In this document: positions 1 to 23,006 of the stretch, piece by piece | Layout of the letters: every line of letters begins with the position of its first letter | How positions within the stretch are numbered: position 1 is the stretch's first letter | Virus record (IMG/VR): IMGVR_UViG_3300025626_000141 | Span: 1 to 23,006 of that record | Strand: one strand, 5' to 3' | DNA: 23,006 nucleotides | DNA from: a virus | Notes under the pieces: model-generated | The model's database searches: none | What the model was told of the DNA's origin: nothing | Seen by the model: only the letters and a program-made list of their open reading frames with translations | Position numbers and translations under genes: made by a program

Positions 1-754
1 TAGTCGTGACTTTCTGTACATCTGCAAATCCTGCCAAATCGACAGCAATGTAATAATTACCATCAGTAGGTTCTTCCTCACTAAATCTAACATCTTCTTC
101 TTTAAAGAGTTCACTGCCGTGCGCCTCGAAGGATGCCATAAACTCCTGACGGAAAGAGAAGGCTGACATAGAGCCTTTAGCTGCTTCAATCTCTTCAGGA
201 TCAAGTAACGGGTTATCGTAGCTAGTGAAGTGGTAGCCCTTGAACGTAGGGTCTTCAGAGATACTAGCGTACTGGTATAGATCGTAGAAGTGGTTACGAC
301 CCATAGGTGTACCAATAAAGAGCGCATCACCCTTCTGATCCGCCAATGCAGGACGTAGGATTTGCTCCCACACCTCTGGCTTCATGTCTGCGTACTCATC
401 CATACACAGGAACTTTAGACTAACACCACGCATGGTCTCTGGTCTATCAGCACCCTTTAGAGAGATGGTGCAGCCATTGATCAGCTTAATCTGTAGGTTG
501 TTAACGTGGGCTGTAGAGATAACATTGTGTGCTAGCTCCAGCAACAACTGCCACATAATGTCTCTAGCCTGACCCTGTGTAGGGGCAACGTAGAACACCT
601 GACCTTTCTTATCAGACAACGCGCTGATGATTAACCGCCAAGCAGCTAGTCTACTTTTCCCTGTACGTCTACCCGCAGCCACTACTTTAAAGCGTGTGTC
701 GTCTTCCCAGACTTCTTGCTGCCAAGGTAATAGCGAGACATTAAGATCAGTCAA
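1..754 (-). CDS. terL: Terminase large subunit (TerL), partial, C-terminus beyond left edge
   Basis: This is the ATPase-nuclease motor that packages DNA into the prohead. I translated the minus strand from a TTG at 752-754. It gives 251 uninterrupted residues and then leaves the window. Visible motifs are a Walker A (GRRTGKS, residues 28-34), a Walker B (LKFLCMDE, D119/E120), the ATPase coupling motif (IGTP, 147-150) and the first acidic residue of the RNase H-like nuclease (YIAVDLAG, D239). The upstream in-frame stop leaves no ATG before the Walker A, so TTG (overlapping the endolysin stop) is the best start; no strong Shine-Dalgarno precedes it. It is the third gene of the late minus-strand operon. 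Function is near certain; the exact start is less so. Confidence 0.95.
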   Translation of the reverse strand, partial: MTDLNVSLLPWQQEVWEDDTRFKVVAAGRRTGKSRLAAWRLIISALSDKKGQVFYVAPTQGQARDIMWQLLLELAHNVISTAHVNNLQIKLINGCTISLKGADRPETMRGVSLKFLCMDEYADMKPEVWEQILRPALADQKGDALFIGTPMGRNHFYDLYQYASISEDPTFKGYHFTSYDNPLLDPEEIEAAKGSMSAFSFRQEFMASFEAHGSELFKEEDVRFSEEEPTDGNYYIAVDLAGFADVQKVTT

Positions 755-755
755 G

Positions 756-1130
756 CTAGTACGTCCACATTACAGGAGGCTCATTACCGTCAAGGTCGCG
801 GATGTCAACATGCACAAAGCTACTAGCAACTCCAATTCCTGAAAAGCCCATCGAGATAGCCTCTTGAACAATCCTAAACCGTTGTGTACCGTCATTGACT
901 TTAATATCTGCTGCGATGCCTTGGGCATGAGTTCCGGGTGTCTCCTTCTTTGCTTCTATGGGGTGGTCTACTGATCTGTAGCCACTTGTAATAACGAAGG
1001 GGAAACCACATCTAGCACGTAACAAATCTAACTTCAGCAACAGCCTGTCACTAATCTCATTCTCGCCAGTGTACTGACAAGCAAACTCTTCCTTAGTAAA
1101 ATAGTCTAAGTCTTGATTTATATCATACAT
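756..1130 (-). CDS. Endolysin, peptidase M15 family (D-Ala-D-Ala carboxypeptidase-like)
   Basis: A 124-residue protein predicted to cleave the peptide part of peptidoglycan at lysis. The fold signature is SGYRS (49-53), then H68 and D75 in THAQGIAAD, and H107 in FVHVDI. These are the expected zinc ligands of the M15/VanY-like fold. I chose the ATG at 1128-1130 because AAGGGG sits 9 nt upstream and the start overlaps the preceding stop (ATGtaTGA). A longer reading to 1316 would only add sequence that shadows the upstream gene. There is no signal peptide or transmembrane segment, so export would need a holin, and none is recognised here. The position between TerS-like and TerL genes is unusual for a lysis gene. 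It could have another cell-wall role, for example in entry. Confidence 0.88.
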   Translation of the reverse strand: MYDINQDLDYFTKEEFACQYTGENEISDRLLLKLDLLRARCGFPFVITSGYRSVDHPIEAKKETPGTHAQGIAADIKVNDGTQRFRIVQEAISMGFSGIGVASSFVHVDIRDLDGNEPPVMWTY

Positions 1131-1527
1131 CTGTATAGTCCCCTTCAATGGGTTCTTCTTGGCCGCCGGATATGACTGTAGTCTCACCGCCAACACCTGT
1201 AATAGAGATGTTGATGGCACTCTTGCCTCCGCTGGCTTTATCCTTTTCAAAATAACTGACAGGTAGTAACCTATCCATGCAGAGCTTCCATGCTGCTGCT
1301 TGATTCTTGTGGTCATCGTCCAAGGCTGCTGACAATATACTATCTAGCACCTTCCTACTCTTAGGAGATGCCAGCATTCTAGCCTTGTATTCGTTAATGA
1401 CCGCAGCATCACCCTTGGGCCGCCCTACTGAGTTACGTTTGCCCTTAGTTTTTGACACAACTGCTGTTTTCTTTGGTCGGCCCACCCGCTTTGCGGGCTG
1501 ACTACCCTTAGGTTCTTTAGTATTCAT
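1123..1527 (-). CDS. Putative terminase small subunit / AT-hook-like DNA-binding protein
   Basis: A 134-residue protein, first gene of the late operon. The basic N-terminus carries two GRP cores flanked by basic residues (RVGRPKK at 15-21 and SVGRPKG at 33-39), like AT-hooks that bind the minor groove of AT-rich DNA. The middle (about 56-92) looks helical, and the tail is acidic. Its position just before the endolysin and TerL suggests DNA recognition for packaging. The AT-hooks could equally mean it binds the AT-rich leader directly upstream of its own gene. The start has AAGGGA about 7 nt upstream. It overlaps the endolysin start by 8 bp. The DNA-binding character is visible; the TerS role is inferred from position. 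Confidence 0.62.
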   Translation of the reverse strand: MNTKEPKGSQPAKRVGRPKKTAVVSKTKGKRNSVGRPKGDAAVINEYKARMLASPKSRKVLDSILSAALDDDHKNQAAAWKLCMDRLLPVSYFEKDKASGGKSAINISITGVGGETTVISGGQEEPIEGDYTDV

Positions 1528-1665: not shown

Positions 1666-1694
1666 ATTATACCATATTTCTAACCAAAAGTCAA
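1666..1694 (-). promoter_or_regulatory. Sigma70-type promoter for the late (minus-strand) operon
   Basis: Read on the minus strand, TTGACT (1689-1694) and a perfect TATAAT (1666-1671) are separated by 17 bp. Transcription would start near 1659 and give a leader of about 130 nt containing both 16-bp repeats. A strong host-type promoter at a late operon implies that timing is set by an added regulator, probably through the adjacent dyads. Confidence 0.8.
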
Positions 1695-1911
1695 GTCTTT
1701 TCTTTACTAATGTTAACATATTTATACATAAGGGCCGTCCCTTTAATAGCTTTTGGCTATACAGGTGTCATCTTAGGAATACACAGGTATTACAAGGAGT
1801 TATGGCATGCACAGGTAGTCATAAGTAAATGTAATTATACACTCTTTTTTCCAAATTGCTACTATTTTGTATACAGGCGGGTACTAAGACAAGCTGCTGG
1901 CCACGTCAGGC

Positions 1912-1926: not shown

Positions 1927-1967
1927 TTATCCACAGGTTATACACAAGCATCCACAAGTTATCCACA
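1927..1967 (+). promoter_or_regulatory. Cluster of three DnaA boxes
   Basis: TTATCCACA (1927-1935), TTATACACA (1938-1946) and TTATCCACA (1959-1967) are three exact matches to TTATNCACA in 41 bp, all on the same strand. They match the E. coli oriC R1/R4 (TTATCCACA) and R2 (TTATACACA) sequences. A further partial match, ATCCACAAG, lies between them. Such clustering is very unlikely by chance and suggests that the host DnaA protein is recruited, for replication initiation or for control of the flanking promoters. Confidence 0.75.
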
Positions 1968-1987
1968 GGCTGCCATGTTGGCACGGG

Positions 1988-2029
1988 TATTGCATGGGAT
2001 TCCACAGGGTTAAGTGTGGGTATGCAATA
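1988..2029. repeat. Nested inverted repeats
   Basis: TATTGCAT (1988-1995) pairs with ATGCAATA (2022-2029). Inside them CCACA (2002-2006) pairs with TGTGG (2015-2019). A perfect 12-bp palindrome, TGTATGCATACA, follows at 2054-2065. These dyads lie between the DnaA boxes and the early promoter and are plausible binding sites for a dimeric regulator. Confidence 0.5.
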
Positions 2030-2189: not shown

Positions 2190-2217
2190 TTGACAGGGTT
2201 GCACAGGTTGATACAAT
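2190..2217 (+). promoter_or_regulatory. Sigma70-type promoter for the early (plus-strand) genes
   Basis: TTGACA (2190-2195) and TACAAT (2212-2217) are separated by 16 bp, and TG one base before the -10 gives an extended -10. Two ACAGG motifs (2193, 2203) lie between the elements. The first small gene begins 35 bp downstream. This is the only good promoter before the early operon and should be active as soon as DNA enters the cell. Confidence 0.8.
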
Positions 2218-3735: not shown

Positions 3736-3854
3736 TTTTATTCACAATAGCAAGTGCTTTATTTGTTTCCTTTGTGGCTTGGCTGGTGTATACTTCCCTG
3801 ACGCTGGAAGACCCGGCACTAGACAACACAATTGAGGATGACTACTATGAGTAG
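3732..3854 (+). CDS. 40-residue membrane peptide (hypothetical)
   Basis: ATG overlaps the previous stop and has GAGGAGG 8 nt upstream, a strong ribosome site. A hydrophobic N-terminal stretch (about 2-20) is followed by an acidic tail ending DDYYE. This would place a short acidic domain on one side of the inner membrane, or it could be a signal anchor. No family recognised. It overlaps the next gene by 8 bp. Confidence 0.6.
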   Translation: MILFTIASALFVSFVAWLVYTSLTLEDPALDNTIEDDYYE

Positions 3855-4071
3855 AATCAAAGAGGAGATGATGGGCTATGAGTACACCCAGAACGATTGG
3901 ATTGAGCCACAGGCGCACGTTATGGTCGACGAGCTAGTCGAGTATCAGGTATACTGCATGACGCTCTCAGAGCTAACCCAGAGGGTCACAAAACAGATGC
4001 GTGATGAGTACTATAGCAATCCCTATGACAATATGACTAGACAATACAGAGAGGCATTCCCAGATGAGTAG
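3847..4071 (+). CDS. Hypothetical 74-residue helical protein
   Basis: Start chosen at the ATG at 3847 (ATGAGTAG overlap with the previous stop). ATG 3838 and TTG 3832 are alternatives in the same frame that add a few residues. The protein is mostly helical and rich in Glu, Met and Tyr, with no membrane segment. It is followed with overlap by the zinc-ribbon gene. No family recognised. Confidence 0.62.
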   Translation: MSRIKEEMMGYEYTQNDWIEPQAHVMVDELVEYQVYCMTLSELTQRVTKQMRDEYYSNPYDNMTRQYREAFPDE

Positions 4072-4336: not shown

Positions 4337-4702
4337 ATGGCAGTATTAGAAGGATTAGTAGCATTTGAAAACCTAGACGAACATGAGATGTATCAGGGTC
4401 AGTCAACCGGAAAGTTCTCTCTGGTTCTCAGCTTGGATGAACCAACAGCAGATACCTTGGCTGGTTCAGGTGTCAAGCTCCGCGAGTACGAGGGAGTCAA
4501 GCAGCGCAAGTTCAGCACCAAGTACGATGTCCCGGTGATGGATGCAGAGGGCAACCCGTTCAAGGGTCGCATTGGTCGAGGCTCTAAGGTGCGTATCATG
4601 TACGCAGAAGGCCAGCCACACCCTGTACACGGCACCAGCACGTACCTGAACAAGATCAAGGTGCTTGAGGTAGCTGAACAGGAAGGCGGAGAGGACTTCT
4701 AG
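4337..4702 (+). CDS. Single-stranded DNA-binding protein (T7 gp2.5-like)
   Basis: 121 residues, predicted OB-fold protein that coats ssDNA at the fork and contacts polymerase and helicase. It has alternating strand-like segments through about residue 110. The acidic tail ends GGEDF; an acidic tail with terminal Phe is the hallmark of the gp2.5 partner-binding end. It is shorter than T7 gp2.5 (232 residues). GAGG lies 8 nt before the ATG, behind its own promoter. The stop overlaps the primase-helicase start (TAGTG). Position immediately before primase-helicase and polymerase strongly supports the call. Confidence 0.82.
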   Translation: MAVLEGLVAFENLDEHEMYQGQSTGKFSLVLSLDEPTADTLAGSGVKLREYEGVKQRKFSTKYDVPVMDAEGNPFKGRIGRGSKVRIMYAEGQPHPVHGTSTYLNKIKVLEVAEQEGGEDF

Positions 4703-6336
4703 TGGCGGTTGAGTCAACATTCGTCCAACATGAGCCATGCCCTTCGTGTGGCTCATCGGACAATCTGGCTCGCTATAGTGATGGTCATGCAGTCTGCTTC
4801 TCTGGGGGCTGCAACTATTACGAACATGGCAACGGTCAGATAGGACAAGTAACACAACGCAAACCAACGAGGTCATTAGAGATGACAGGTGTAACAGCGG
4901 CAATCCCTGATAGACGTATCTCACAGTCAACGTGCCAGCGGTACGGTGTGACAGTTGAGTACGGCACTGACGGACAAATTGTCAAGCATCACTACCCGTA
5001 CCACAACAAGGACACAGGCGCGGTGACAGGAACCAAGGTGCGGATCACCGAAACTAAATCATTCTATGCAACAGGAGAGTTCAATGAGGCAGGGCTGTTC
5101 GGCCAGCAGGCTTTCAAGACGGGCGGTAAGTACATCACGATCACAGAAGGCGAGGCGGACGCACTTGCTGTCAACGAAATGTTCGACGGAAAGTGGCCAG
5201 TCGTCTCCATCAGATCAGGTGCAGCCGGAGCAGCCAAAGACATCAAAGCGAACCTAGAGTGGCTTGAGACCTTTGACAATGTGGTGATCTGCTTTGACAA
5301 CGACAAGGCAGGACAGGAAGCAGCCAAGTCGGTGCTTAATCTGTTCACCCCCAACAAGGCCAAGAATGTCACACTGCCAGCCAAGGATGCAGGCGATATG
5401 CTTAAGAGCAATCAGGTGCAGGCGTTTGTTAAGGAGTGGTGGAACGCTAAGACATTTAGACCGGACGGTATTGTCTCAGGTTTAGATACTTGGGATTTAC
5501 TTCAAGAGAAGAGGGATGTCAAGTCCATACCCTATCCTTGGGACTGCTTGAATGCTTTTACCTACGGCTTTAGACCGCAGGAGTTAGTGACCATCACATC
5601 AGGGTCAGGAATGGGTAAGAGCCAGATCATGCGAGAGCTTGAGTATTATCTACTGAAGAACACGGAAGACAACATCGGCATCCTAGCTCTGGAGGAAGAC
5701 ATACCTAAGACTACGTTAGGTATTATGTCTATGGAGGCTAACAAATTACTTCACGTACCAGAGGTACGAGCAGGGGTATCAATAGAGGAAGAGCGTGGTT
5801 ACTGGGAAAGGACGTTTGGTTTAGATAAGTTACAGTTGTTAGATCATTGGGGTAGCACAAGCGAGGACGATCTGTTAGGCCGTATACGATACATGGCTAA
5901 AGGTCTGGACTGCAAGTGGATTATCCTTGATCACCTGAGCATCGTGGTCAGCGATCAGGACAACGGTGACGAGCGTAAGGCTATCGACAGTATTATGACT
6001 AACCTCCGCAAGCTGGTTCAGGAGACAGGTGTAGGGCTATTCCTAGTATCACACCTTCGCAGACCCAGCGGTGCCAAGGCACACGAGGACGGTGGGAAGA
6101 TTAGCTTGGGTGAGCTACGTGGTTCTGCGGCCATCGCACAGCTCAGTGATATTGTGATTGGCTTGGAGCGTGACCAACAACACGTTGACCCTGAGATACG
6201 CAACACCACCACGGTACGTGTATTGAAGAATAGGTTTGTAGGTCTGACTGGCCCCGCGTGTTACCTGTACTACGATAAGGAGTCAGGCCGCATGATTGAG
6301 ACAGCCTGTCCTACAGGAGATAACGCGGAGTTCTAA
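4702..6336 (+). CDS. Bifunctional DNA primase-helicase (T7 gp4-like)
   Basis: 544 residues. It unwinds the fork and makes RNA primers. The zinc-binding domain has Cys13, Cys16, Cys32 and Cys37. The TOPRIM primase core has TEGEADAL (E149, E151, D153) and CFDNDKAG (D199, D201). The RecA-like helicase has Walker A SGSGMGKS (300-307), the catalytic glutamate in LALEED (E331/E332), Walker B WIILDH (D410), VSHLRRP (H451) and GELRGSAAIAQ before the last helicase segment. The start is GTG, overlapping the SSB stop. Length and domain order match the T7 family. The stop overlaps the polymerase ATG. Confidence 0.96.
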   Translation: MAVESTFVQHEPCPSCGSSDNLARYSDGHAVCFSGGCNYYEHGNGQIGQVTQRKPTRSLEMTGVTAAIPDRRISQSTCQRYGVTVEYGTDGQIVKHHYPYHNKDTGAVTGTKVRITETKSFYATGEFNEAGLFGQQAFKTGGKYITITEGEADALAVNEMFDGKWPVVSIRSGAAGAAKDIKANLEWLETFDNVVICFDNDKAGQEAAKSVLNLFTPNKAKNVTLPAKDAGDMLKSNQVQAFVKEWWNAKTFRPDGIVSGLDTWDLLQEKRDVKSIPYPWDCLNAFTYGFRPQELVTITSGSGMGKSQIMRELEYYLLKNTEDNIGILALEEDIPKTTLGIMSMEANKLLHVPEVRAGVSIEEERGYWERTFGLDKLQLLDHWGSTSEDDLLGRIRYMAKGLDCKWIILDHLSIVVSDQDNGDERKAIDSIMTNLRKLVQETGVGLFLVSHLRRPSGAKAHEDGGKISLGELRGSAAIAQLSDIVIGLERDQQHVDPEIRNTTTVRVLKNRFVGLTGPACYLYYDKESGRMIETACPTGDNAEF

Positions 6337-8063
6337 TGCAAATCGTATTCGACATAGAAGCTAACGGCCTTAAGCCTACAAAGGTCTGGGTAATTGTAGC
6401 TACGGAACTGGACACCGGTGAGACGCATACGTTCTCAGGTGATTCGTTACTAGCGTTCAACGATTACATTGCAGGTCTTGGAGAGTGTGAGATCATAGGT
6501 CACAACATCATTGACTATGACATCCCTGTCCTTGAGGAGCTGCTGGGTACAGACTTTAGTAAGTGCAAGGTTACCGACACATTAGTCATGTCGAGACTGG
6601 CCAACCCTTCACGAGAGGGCGGTCACTCTCTCCGTAACTGGGGTGATAGACTTAATCAATCTAAAGGAGACCATGATGACTGGGATAATTATTCGCAGGA
6701 TATGGTGGACTATTGCAAGCAAGACGTTAATGTTAATGTGCTGGTGTACAAGAGATTACTTCTTGACCTTGCAGATTTTGGAGCTGAAAGCATTGTCCTT
6801 GAACACCAAGTACAAAGCATTGTATCACAGCAAATTAAAACAGGCTGGCTCTTAGATCAAGAGAAAGCATTTGGATTACTAGCAGAACTAAAGGAGAAGA
6901 AGAATGACCTTGAAGACGAAGTGCATAAAACTTTCAAACCGTTACCAACATTTGTCAAAGAGATTACCCCTAAGATTAAGAAAGATGGTGCGTATTCGGT
7001 TGTTGGGCTTAAATTTCTAGGCGAACAGTGGACTACCGCAGTAGCTCCCTTCAGCCGTCTTGACTACCCAGAGTTTAACTTGGGTTCACGACAGCAGATA
7101 GGACGATACCTCCAGTACTTTGGCTGGAAGCCTAAGCAATTTACTGAGACAGGACAAGCCATCGTAGACGAGGCGGTGCTGAGTACAGTGAAAGGAATAC
7201 CACAGGCTTCCCTGATAGCTGAGTACCTGATGATACAGAAGCGTGTCGCACAGGTGCAAAGCTGGCTAGACGCAGTCGAGGATGACGGTAGAGTACACGG
7301 GTATGTGAACACCAACGGAGCAGTGACAGGACGCATGACGCACTCCAGTCCCAATATGGGGCAGGTACCAGCGGTCTACTCACCCTACGGCAAGCAGTGT
7401 CGTGATGTGTGGACGGTACAGGAAGGATACAAGTTAGTTGGTATGGATGCCAGCGGTCTTGAGCTACGTATGTTGGCACACTACATGAACGATGAAGGAT
7501 ACACAAATGAAATACTCAACGGAGATATACACACGGCAAATCAGTTGGCTGCGGGCCTTGACACTAGAGATCAAGCTAAGACTTTCATCTACGCTTTCCT
7601 GTATGGGGCCGGAGATGCCAAAATCGGAAGCATCGTTGGTGGAACTAGAAAGGACGGTCAGAGACTTAAGGAAAAGTTCCTCGCAAATACGCCAGCTCTT
7701 GGAGAGTTACGAACACGAGTTGGAATGGCGGCTACAAGAGGCTATGTTTATGGCTTGGATAAAAGAAGGATCGCCATACGATCAGAACACGCTGCATTGA
7801 ATAGCTTACTTCAGTCAGCCGGGGCTATCGTTATGAAGAAAGCCTTGTGTTTACTGCATGAATATGCTATACTATGGGGTATAGACTTTAACTTTTTAGG
7901 GAACATCCACGATGAAATCCAGACAGAAGTCAGACAGGAGAAGTCAGAGGTTTTCGGAAGACTGGCAGCAAGCTGTGTTGAAGCTGCGGGCCTCCACTAC
8001 GAACTCAACTGCCCTCTCGCCGGAGATTACAAAGTCGGAACCAGTTGGGCAGATACCCACTGA
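6336..8063 (+). CDS. DNA polymerase, family A (T7 gp5-like) with 3'-5' exonuclease
   Basis: 575 residues, replicative polymerase. The exonuclease domain has FDIEANG (D6, E8), GHNIIDYD (about 55-62) and DYCKQD (Y126, D130). The polymerase domain has motif A DASGLELR (D371, R378), motif B RDQAKTFIYAFLYGAG (R411, K415, Y419, Y423) and motif C GNIHDEIQ (H525, D526, E527). It is shorter than T7 gp5 (704 residues), so parts of the thumb, including any thioredoxin-binding loop, may be reduced. Residue 419, at the E. coli Phe762 position, is Tyr as in T7. The ATG overlaps the preceding stop. Confidence 0.97.
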   Translation: MQIVFDIEANGLKPTKVWVIVATELDTGETHTFSGDSLLAFNDYIAGLGECEIIGHNIIDYDIPVLEELLGTDFSKCKVTDTLVMSRLANPSREGGHSLRNWGDRLNQSKGDHDDWDNYSQDMVDYCKQDVNVNVLVYKRLLLDLADFGAESIVLEHQVQSIVSQQIKTGWLLDQEKAFGLLAELKEKKNDLEDEVHKTFKPLPTFVKEITPKIKKDGAYSVVGLKFLGEQWTTAVAPFSRLDYPEFNLGSRQQIGRYLQYFGWKPKQFTETGQAIVDEAVLSTVKGIPQASLIAEYLMIQKRVAQVQSWLDAVEDDGRVHGYVNTNGAVTGRMTHSSPNMGQVPAVYSPYGKQCRDVWTVQEGYKLVGMDASGLELRMLAHYMNDEGYTNEILNGDIHTANQLAAGLDTRDQAKTFIYAFLYGAGDAKIGSIVGGTRKDGQRLKEKFLANTPALGELRTRVGMAATRGYVYGLDKRRIAIRSEHAALNSLLQSAGAIVMKKALCLLHEYAILWGIDFNFLGNIHDEIQTEVRQEKSEVFGRLAASCVEAAGLHYELNCPLAGDYKVGTSWADTH

Positions 8064-19152: not shown

Positions 19153-19385
19153 TAGTAAGACCCTCCAGTAATTGTGTCAGCCGTCAGTGTGCCTGTGACG
19201 TTTACGGTAGCGGCTGTAACAGTACCAGTAAATGTAGGACTAGCTGTGTCTGCTTTAGTAGCACTCGCTATCTGTATGTTGTTAAACTCAGTGTCGATCT
19301 CTGTACCTTTAACAATCTTAGCTGGATTGCCCGAAGGGAGAGAGTCCTTGGTTGCAAAGTTGGTTGTCTTAGTATAATTAGACAT
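19152..19385 (-). CDS. Short fibre-like structural protein
   Basis: 77 residues. The N-terminal part (NFATKDSLPSGNP, KIVKGTEIDTEFNNI) and the segment TKADTASPTFTGTVTAATV are recurring elements in phage fibre and spike proteins, where they form an attachment segment followed by a beta repeat. Here the protein stops right after the repeat without a receptor-binding domain. It may be a minor decoration, a virion anchor for another fibre, or the remnant of a longer fibre. GGGAGA precedes the ATG; it is adjacent to the tail tubular B gene. Confidence 0.68.
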   Translation of the reverse strand: MSNYTKTTNFATKDSLPSGNPAKIVKGTEIDTEFNNIQIASATKADTASPTFTGTVTAATVNVTGTLTADTITGGSY

Positions 19386-21564: not shown

Positions 21565-23006
21565 TTATCTATACCCTTGTAGTAAAGTGCTATTAGTCAG
21601 CATGCCCGGAGGTCTAGTGCGTAACTGTGGTACTTGTTGTAAAGTTTGTTGTATTGAAGGCACAGGAACAAAAGTAAAAGGATTAAGAAGTTCTTGTGTA
21701 GCTCCTATTTGTGTTTCTAGTTGTAACAAATCACCAAAGAGAGAGTCCGTAGTGCGTGTAGCTGCTTGTCCTCTAATACCCTGAACACCTTGTTGACCTT
21801 GTTGACCTTGCTCTCCTTGCTCTCCTTGCTCTCCTTGCTCTCCTTGCTCTCCTTGCTCTCCTTGCTCTCCATCAGTGCCATCAGTTCCATCAGTGCCGTC
21901 AATACCGTCTACACCGTCTATGCCATCTATGCCATCAATACCGTCTACACCAGCTACACCGTCTATGCCGTCTATGCCGTCTATGCCATCAATACCATCA
22001 ATACCATTTATGCCGTCTACCGGAGTAGGCGTCGGCTCTACCGGAGTAGGCGTAGGTTCTACCGGAGGCTGTACCGGAGGCTGTACCGGAGGCTGTACCG
22101 GAGGCTGTACCGGAGGCTGTACCGGAGGCTGTACCGGAGGCTGTACCGGAGGCTGTACCGGAGGCTCTACTGGTGGCTCTACAAGAGTAGGCGTAGGCTC
22201 TACAGGAGGCTCTACTGGAGGTTGAGGCTCGAAAGGAGGAATATAAATAGGAGGTGTTTCTTCTTCTTCTAAAGATTTTTTTTCGTATTCATCCATCTCT
22301 TCAGCAGTAACAATGCCATCATTATTAACGTCTAAAGTATTAAAATCAGCGTCTAACCATGTATCACCAAAAACATCTTCAAAAGAAGTAGGATCGTATT
22401 CAAAACTTTCTCCTTCTGCTGGTATTACTGGAGGAGCTACAGGCTCTGGAGCAGGTGCTGGCGTAGGTGCTGGAGCAGGCTCAGGAGCAGGTGCTGGAGT
22501 AGTGTCTGTAGTAGTGTCTGTAGTAGTGTCTGTAGTAGTGTCTGTAGTATCTACAGTACCAGCAACTGTTTCTACAGGTCTTGTATCAACTGTATTGGCT
22601 GCGGCAGCGGCGGCATCTGCTGCAGCTCTAGCGGCATCATCAGAGTCAGTGTCTTCTGATGTGATTTCTTCAGTAGGTAGTTTTACGTCTACTTCTATAG
22701 GGTCAGCAGTAATATCTACGTCTTCAAACTCAGCATCTACGTCTTCCTCTACTGTACTAGTGTCTGGGGTAACGCCTGTAACATCTACTACTTCACCTGT
22801 AACGCGGTCAGTAACGTTTGTTTCAAAGTCTCTTTCTGCTTCTATAGCTGCTATGACTGCTGCTAAATCATCGTCATCGTCTTCTTCTTCAGCTATACCT
22901 CCAAGACCTGCACCAGCTCCAACAATATCTACAGGAACACCACCAAAACTTAAACCAGCTTCTGTTACTCCGCCAGTAATAGGGGAACCACTTGACGCTG
23001 TGAAAC
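21565..23006 (-). CDS. Mosaic virion protein: EF-hand, Pro-rich repeats and collagen-like domain; 5' end beyond right edge
   Basis: The minus-strand frame is open from the window edge to a TAA at 21565-21567, giving 479 residues with no stop, so the Met at 22294-22296 is internal. Order: Gly/Val-rich start, acidic segment, Ala-rich stretch, four TDTT repeats, Pro-Ala/Glu linker, an EF-hand loop DVNNDGIVTAEE with flanking helices, PPVE then eight PPVQ repeats, a collagen-like Gly-X-Y tract (GID/GVD/GTD, then seven GEQ) and a C-terminal domain of about 65 residues. No transmembrane segment. The gene lies between missing upstream late genes and tail tubular A, so a virion fibre or appendage is likely. 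Function inferred only. Confidence 0.85.
   Translation of the reverse strand, partial: FTASSGSPITGGVTEAGLSFGGVPVDIVGAGAGLGGIAEEEDDDDDLAAVIAAIEAERDFETNVTDRVTGEVVDVTGVTPDTSTVEEDVDAEFEDVDITADPIEVDVKLPTEEITSEDTDSDDAARAAADAAAAAANTVDTRPVETVAGTVDTTDTTTDTTTDTTTDTTPAPAPEPAPAPTPAPAPEPVAPPVIPAEGESFEYDPTSFEDVFGDTWLDADFNTLDVNNDGIVTAEEMDEYEKKSLEEEETPPIYIPPFEPQPPVEPPVEPTPTLVEPPVEPPVQPPVQPPVQPPVQPPVQPPVQPPVQPPVQPPVEPTPTPVEPTPTPVDGINGIDGIDGIDGIDGIDGVAGVDGIDGIDGIDGVDGIDGTDGTDGTDGEQGEQGEQGEQGEQGEQGEQGQQGQQGVQGIRGQAATRTTDSLFGDLLQLETQIGATQELLNPFTFVPVPSIQQTLQQVPQLRTRPPGMLTNSTLLQGYR
21808..21870 (-). repeat. 9-bp tandem repeat x7 (Gly-Glu-Gln)
   Basis: Seven perfect copies of TTGCTCTCC (plus strand), encoding GEQ triplets of the collagen-like domain. 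Variant copies flank it (GQQ on one side, GTD on the other). Perfect identity points to recent expansion or active slippage. Confidence 0.9.
21871..22020 (-). repeat. Imperfect 9-bp repeats encoding Gly-(Ile/Val/Thr)-Asp
   Basis: About sixteen degenerate 9-bp units encode GID, GVD, GTD, and one each GIN and GVA. Together with the GEQ tract they make a Gly-X-Y run of over 25 triplets, typical of phage collagen-like stalks. Degeneracy suggests this part is older than the GEQ tract. Confidence 0.82.
22061..22156 (-). repeat. 12-bp tandem repeat x8 (Pro-Pro-Val-Gln)
   Basis: Eight perfect copies of ACCGGAGGCTGT (plus strand), with a ninth variant at 22157-22168. They encode PPVQ units, probably a stiff polyproline-type rod. 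Perfect copies are expected to vary in number between isolates, always in frame. Confidence 0.92.
22297..22332 (-). other. EF-hand calcium-binding loop within the mosaic protein
   Basis: The 12-residue loop DVNNDGIVTAEE has D1, N3, D5, G6 and E12 at the canonical calcium-ligand positions and a hydrophobic residue (V) at position 8. It is flanked by WLDADFNTL before and MDEYEKK after, as for the E and F helices. Only one loop is visible; dockerin-like or paired EF-hands normally have two. Confidence 0.75.
22499..22546 (-). repeat. 12-bp tandem repeat x4 (Thr-Asp-Thr-Thr)
   Basis: Four perfect copies of GTAGTGTCTGTA (plus strand) in the upstream part of the mosaic gene, adjoining a Pro-Ala/Glu linker. 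A third independent in-frame minisatellite in the same gene. Confidence 0.85.

Follow-up and report, generated by a model that had tools for sequence, protein, structure and literature searches.

What does a tandem array of DnaA boxes do in the control region of a phage that has T7-type replication genes and no RNA polymerase of its own? T7 assigns the start of replication to its own RNA polymerase. In uncultured marine groups, little is known about how the lytic phages without this enzyme first open their DNA for replication. We analyzed a stretch of 23,006 bp, a complete IMG/VR record (the window), which is a phage fragment with T7-type replication genes and whose relatives carry podovirus-type portal and terminase genes. 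The source is an uncultured marine phage. No DNA match to the window was found among 50,697 named phage records, and the nearest cultured primases, about 50% identical, were from Pelagibacter phages. HTVC103P, the closest cultured relative by primase and polymerase, contained no TTATCCACA within the 24.5 kb read. Of two scans of bacterial genomes for relatives, the first found none and the second nothing but a primase of 33% identity, from a Desulfuromonadaceae MAG. At 21565-23004 on the minus strand, the window also encodes a tail-fibre-like protein whose repeats are proline-rich and collagen-like (GIDGIDG, EQGEQG).

The phage single-subunit RNA polymerase (PF00940) was not found in G000-G004 by a search that detected it in the positive controls T7, phiEap-1, and P483. 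The original prediction of a phage without its own RNA polymerase thus also holds for these relatives, which speaks against a T7-type origin. A domain search also found no phage DnaA C-terminal domain. One of the relatives, G003 (36,907 bp), is complete, as its two contig ends abut at window position 19229/19230. The leftward genes of the window stop at 1527 and the first annotated rightward ORFs begin near 2180-2340. The features of this control region and of the genes on either side are as follows, in window coordinates.

2-754, minus strand: terminase large subunit, truncated by the window edge (phrog_2, E 4e-39)
756-1316, minus strand: endolysin, M15-type peptidase (phrog_894, E 7e-32)
1123-1527, minus strand: first leftward gene, an ORF that is small-terminase-like by position only (no PHROG match)
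1666-1694, minus strand: sigma70 promoter of the leftward genes, TTGACT-17-TATAAT (11/12 matches)
1869-1884, plus strand: left conserved element GTATACAGGCGGGTAC, preceded by the T-rich run TTTTTTCCAAATTGCTACTATTTTGTAT, retained by almost every control region in the clade, with or without boxes
1909-1921, no strand assigned: conserved C-run GGCCCCCCGGGGG, seen in boxed and boxless relatives
1927-1935, plus strand: DnaA box 1, TTATCCACA, exact match, invariant across 13 distinct sequences with the window's layout
1938-1946, plus strand: DnaA box 2, TTATACACA, exact match, with homologues differing at positions 3 and 5
1948-1956, plus strand: degenerate DnaA box GCATCCACA, in register between boxes 2 and 3, read from the sequence
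1959-1967, plus strand: DnaA box 3, TTATCCACA, exact match, invariant
1979-1994, plus strand: sigma54-type -24/-12 element TGGCACGGGTATTGCA, the sole match in the window, pointing to the early genes
2020-2035, no strand assigned: right conserved near-palindrome GTATGCAATAGGATAC, the right border of an exchangeable slot in boxed and boxless relatives
2190-2217, plus strand: sigma70 promoter of the early genes, TTGACA-16-TACAAT (11/12 matches)
4337-4702, plus strand: Gp2.5-like ssDNA-binding protein (phrog_112, E 1e-5)
4702-6336, plus strand: T7 gp4-type primase-helicase (phrog_239, E 4e-180)
6336-8063, plus strand: family A DNA polymerase (phrog_17, E 9e-147)

The three exact boxes predicted at 1927, 1938, and 1959 on one strand were confirmed in the sequence. 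With the degenerate box they form four tandem units of about 11 bp pitch, separated by gaps of 2, 1, and 2 bp (1927-1967, 41 bp). For pairs of like-oriented boxes, 2 bp was found to be the optimal gap with Thermotoga DnaA (PMC10316083). Two boxes of the relaxed form did not occur in any of 20,000 dinucleotide shuffles of the window's 147 bp interval. Across 37 non-redundant homologous control intervals we counted 42 copies of TTATCCACA, against a shuffle mean of 0.07 and a maximum of 2, which excludes a chance origin of the boxes. The remaining TTWTNCACA matches in the window (3738 and 10499) are both in coding sequence and at chance level, and the complete relative G003 has only two TTATCCACA genome-wide, both inside the control region. 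Distances from box to box had maxima at 11 and 21-22 bp, in agreement with a period of 10.5 bp (R = 0.77). The array therefore shows the properties expected of DnaA arrays, namely TTWTNCACA above chance, helical phasing, 2 bp gaps, and like orientation (reversed in a minority of the clade).

To place the array in its clade, 160 relatives were fetched via primase and endolysin. They yielded 75 control intervals, 37 of them non-redundant; 18 of these were boxed and 19 boxless. In the 13 distinct sequences with the window's layout, none of the 18 columns of the outer boxes varied, while 35 of 40 columns of the left flank did. Box 2 of the direct homologues, a set gathered by the right flank and not by the boxes, was TTATACACA, TTTTACACA, or TTTTGCACA. 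Its variation was confined to the degenerate positions of TTWTNCACA (two alignable rows were shifted), as expected under selection for DnaA recognition. The core ATCCACA of the degenerate box was retained in 13 of 14 homologues aligned without gaps. Judged from their sequences, the boxes are real, under selection, and phased as in DnaA arrays. The conserved outer boxes and the consensus-type variation of box 2 make binding by host DnaA the best reading, and host DnaA very probably binds the array.

Conservation in related phages, which the original prediction had proposed as a check, held only in part. The outer boxes are invariant as described above, but L011, a close relative with the same layout, is boxless although its terminase-small protein and primase are 97% and 98% identical to those of the window. 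With close relatives of the same layout lacking boxes, the lineage does not depend on them. DNA similarity between L011 and the window ends at 1922, five bases short of box 1, and returns near 2328. The array occupies a slot between the left conserved element, of which TTTTGTAT at 1865-1872 is part, and the right near-palindrome. On a tree of lysin and terS, the boxed state changed at least 11 times, with 10 changes forced by well supported branches. In L108, L125, L137, and L147 the boxes are flanked by duplicated GTGACC dyads, unlike their context in the window, and in one group of the clade the boxes are reversed in orientation. The switches on the tree, the differing contexts, and the reversed boxes together show that this one slot has repeatedly acquired, lost, or swapped boxes.

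Other contents of the control region also varied among relatives. In boxless relatives (for example L023, L113, L118, and L065), the slot was filled by GTGACC...GTCAC-type dyads 13-16 bp apart, which are perhaps the sites of another regulator. A conserved structured RNA was also observed in L011 (2903-3001), L061 (1266-1364), and 13 other loci, where the early transcript is predicted to begin. It has 30 pairs, 17 of them with compensatory changes, a level reached in 0 of 500 shuffles, and it had no match in Rfam or INPHARED. This RNA was mostly, not exclusively, in relatives without DnaA boxes and is absent from the window, in which Rfam gave no match at gathering thresholds. It is perhaps a put-like antiterminator. 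A repeated GCGACA/TTATCT element (GCGACATGATTTATCTATATGCGACA, 2136-2166 in the window) recurs, also inverted, near the early promoters of L043, L123, L150, and L161.

The array lies between two divergent sigma70 promoters. The idea that it times these promoters is not supported; the distance to either -35 element exceeds 220 bp (223-233 bp). The original prediction had missed the sigma54-type element, TGGCACGGGTATTGCA, which begins 11 bp past the last DnaA box. Sigma54 promoters are a rarely used bacterial promoter type. TGGCACGGGTATTGCA agrees with all fixed positions of the sigma54 -24/-12 consensus, and its transcription start is predicted near 2005. The element or a variant of it was found in 11 of 18 boxed control regions and in none of 19 boxless ones. 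On the early strand of the boxed regions, a spacer scan with TGGCA-N(n)-TTGC gave 18 matches at n=6 and 0-1 at every other n. Strict matches lay inside control regions in 60 of 62 cases (1.18 Mb of relatives' DNA). The combined pattern TTATCCACA-N6..16-TGGCACG-N4-TTGC was found in 62 contigs of IMG/VR, and in none when the inner spacer was one base longer. Flank columns that had been left out of the search pattern obeyed the mrNrY/W pattern of sigma54-type sites. With TGGCACG-N4-TTGCW at invariant spacing, the element has the sequence of a sigma54 promoter, and it is probably recognized by sigma54.

Outside the clade, non-coding box arrays with elements were identified in L354, L342, L351, L383/L385, L364, and others. 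In L354, an unrelated viral contig of 64 kb, eight DnaA-type boxes at 12 bp pitch are followed by three strict elements (around 3810-3877, minus strand). A few matches of a single box and an element were in coding sequence (L310/L325, L329) and are probably due to chance.

The best explanation is a module for docking two host factors, DnaA and sigma54, whose most likely use is to start replication. We put the probability of this reading at about 0.5. The module's place would be the control region from which late genes run leftward and early genes rightward. Host DnaA would bind the four-unit array cooperatively, head to tail, while the sigma54 (RpoN) element 11 bp downstream would direct polymerase into the early genes. 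Early in infection, bound DnaA and sigma54-RNA polymerase would open the stretch and supply an RNA start, from which the phage's own T7-type primase-helicase and polymerase could begin copying.

The same pairing might serve as a transcription switch only, with array-bound DnaA activating or repressing the sigma54 promoter, so that early transcription is tied to host DnaA-ATP and replication starts elsewhere. Of 55 clade matches in IMG/VR, 43 have a gap of 11 bp from the last box to the element, and array and element are exchanged as one unit; judging from this sequence behaviour, the two form a cassette. We nevertheless consider a pure switch unlikely. Box orientation is reversible, the gap varies in unrelated phages, and a separate sigma70 early promoter is present at 2190. 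No activation of sigma54 polymerase by DnaA is known.

Several observations bear on replication directly. The mid-position of the array between divergent promoters and the lack of a phage RNA polymerase in G003 and of a phage DnaA speak for an origin. However, no AT-rich unwinding element was found beside the array, as the 150 bp on the CACA side are about 50% GC; boxless relatives share the AT-rich stretch on the opposite side, and sisters that have these replication genes but no boxes thrive. In G001 and G003, GC skew reaches its minima at or close to the control region, where gene direction switches as well. GC skew was rejected as proof of an origin because it coincides with this switch and because skew at fourfold sites was without a leading-strand pattern. 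We give somewhat less than an even chance to a role of the module in starting replication that goes beyond a mere switch of transcription or a decoy.

We searched named phages by blastn with the array as query. Arrays of 4-6 like-oriented TTATCCACA, each far above shuffles, were found in Berlinvirus (P483, A7, nasanit), Eapunavirus (phiEap-1), and Klebsiella Molineuxvirinae (ZK1, Kp7, FBKp16), and the phiEap-1 type was common to 33 records. These early non-coding end arrays are unannotated (L289-L300). The left ends of T7 and SP6 had no DnaA boxes. In the T5-like phage SPC35, boxes lie in the first-step-transfer DNA, and the T5 injection stop signal has been described as containing DnaA boxes (PMC13250531). 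Together these cases make DnaA boxes in lytic phages a recurrent and partly known feature, and the original view that they would be unusual in a T7-like phage does not stand. Among the matches listed by a literature search that lay largely outside the subscription journals, there was no report of DnaA arrays in Autographiviridae or of sigma54-dependent early promoters in lytic phages, and no report of a DnaA array paired with a sigma54-type element was found in the literature searched.

The positions of these arrays raise another explanation, in which the array is a decoy that draws DnaA from oriC, or a signal that marks or pauses the genome end entering first, as proposed for T5. The arrays of phiEap-1, Kp7, ZK1, and Squash are within a few hundred bp of the record ends, and those of SPC35 are inside terminal repeats. 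With only 3-4 sites per genome here, this role is quite unlikely for the array studied here. At the left conserved element (the region of window 1865-1895), contig ends of six relatives piled up weakly over 22 bp, which hints faintly at a physical end of the genome; the other ends were scattered. A cohesive or terminal end at the C-run was rejected, since the contig ends showed only this weak excess at the left element.

We also considered whether the sigma54-like 16-mers are initiator iterons that, with the DnaA boxes, make up an origin of the kind known from plasmids P1, F, and RK2. Five clade members (L367, L368, L370, L371, and L376) have 11-12 of these 16-mers at direct spacings of 26-28 bp and in both orientations, flanking two inverted DnaA boxes. 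Such numbers count against ordinary promoters. Polymerases could not fill all 11-12 copies together, which makes a repeat-binding protein a serious alternative. Of 50 multi-copy clusters, 49 lay at most 200 bp from a DnaA-like box, a count biased by the many loci fetched with box-plus-element patterns. Yet the window has a single copy, the identical 16-mer recurs in unrelated viruses, which is unexpected for iterons, and its free columns match the sigma54 consensus. No early gene family (ORFs of at least 35 aa) was present in all element-bearing relatives and absent from element-free ones among 66 loci, a biased sample mostly fetched with the box/element pattern. A box-specific or element-specific early gene for a cognate binding protein was accordingly rejected, as none covers all members, and an iteron initiator was likewise not found. 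The readers of the sites are thus probably host proteins. An iteron-type origin is unlikely, though still to be reckoned with.

Docking of host DnaA and sigma54 therefore remains our preferred reading. A broader version is doubtful: a composite host-state module, a DnaA array at fixed distance from sigma54-RNA-polymerase sites, might jointly set off both replication and early transcription in lytic phages. It would have evolved several times and would trade places, as a cassette, with boxless alternatives, of which some start the early transcript with an undescribed structured RNA. The conserved, exchangeable boxes and sigma54-type element make it a testable idea that two regulators of the host are borrowed together by such phages. 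As culturable phages of the T7 group carry the same arrays, laboratory strains already allow a test of the DnaA half.

The locus shares features with several known systems. As at the T7 primary origin (phi1.1 promoters and an AT-rich stretch), the replication genes are T7-type (SSB, primase-helicase, and family A polymerase), whereas the window's clade is without phage RNA polymerase or its promoters. In iteron origins of plasmids and prophages (P1 oriR, F oriS, RK2 oriV), DnaA boxes also adjoin longer repeated elements, but a dedicated initiator gene is expected there and none was found in the clade. The T5 injection stop signal and first-step-transfer DNA (SPC35, L298) similarly have a TTATCCACA cluster in early non-coding DNA of a lytic phage; there, the boxes lie in a terminal repeat of 10 kb that has inverted repeats, and the spacer scan found no sigma54-type element in the SPC35 stretch. 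The arrays of Berlinvirus, Eapunavirus, and Klebsiella Molineuxvirinae are alike in their like-oriented TTATCCACA, often spaced by about 11, 21-23, 34, or 53-55 bp, and in their location from the terminase end to the first early genes. They differ in that these phages encode their own RNA polymerase and that the same scan found no sigma54-type element in them. In Studiervirinae, boxes are interleaved with CCTAAAG-type repeats, unlike in the window; such repeats also occur in T7. Unlike bacterial oriC, the window's array is on a phage genome, has no adjoining AT-rich unwinding element, and is paired with a sigma54-type element. With the left DnaA-oligomerization region of oriC (E. coli R1/R5/tau2/I1/I2; Thermotoga oriC), it shares like-oriented 9 bp boxes, gaps of 1-2 bp, and helical phase.
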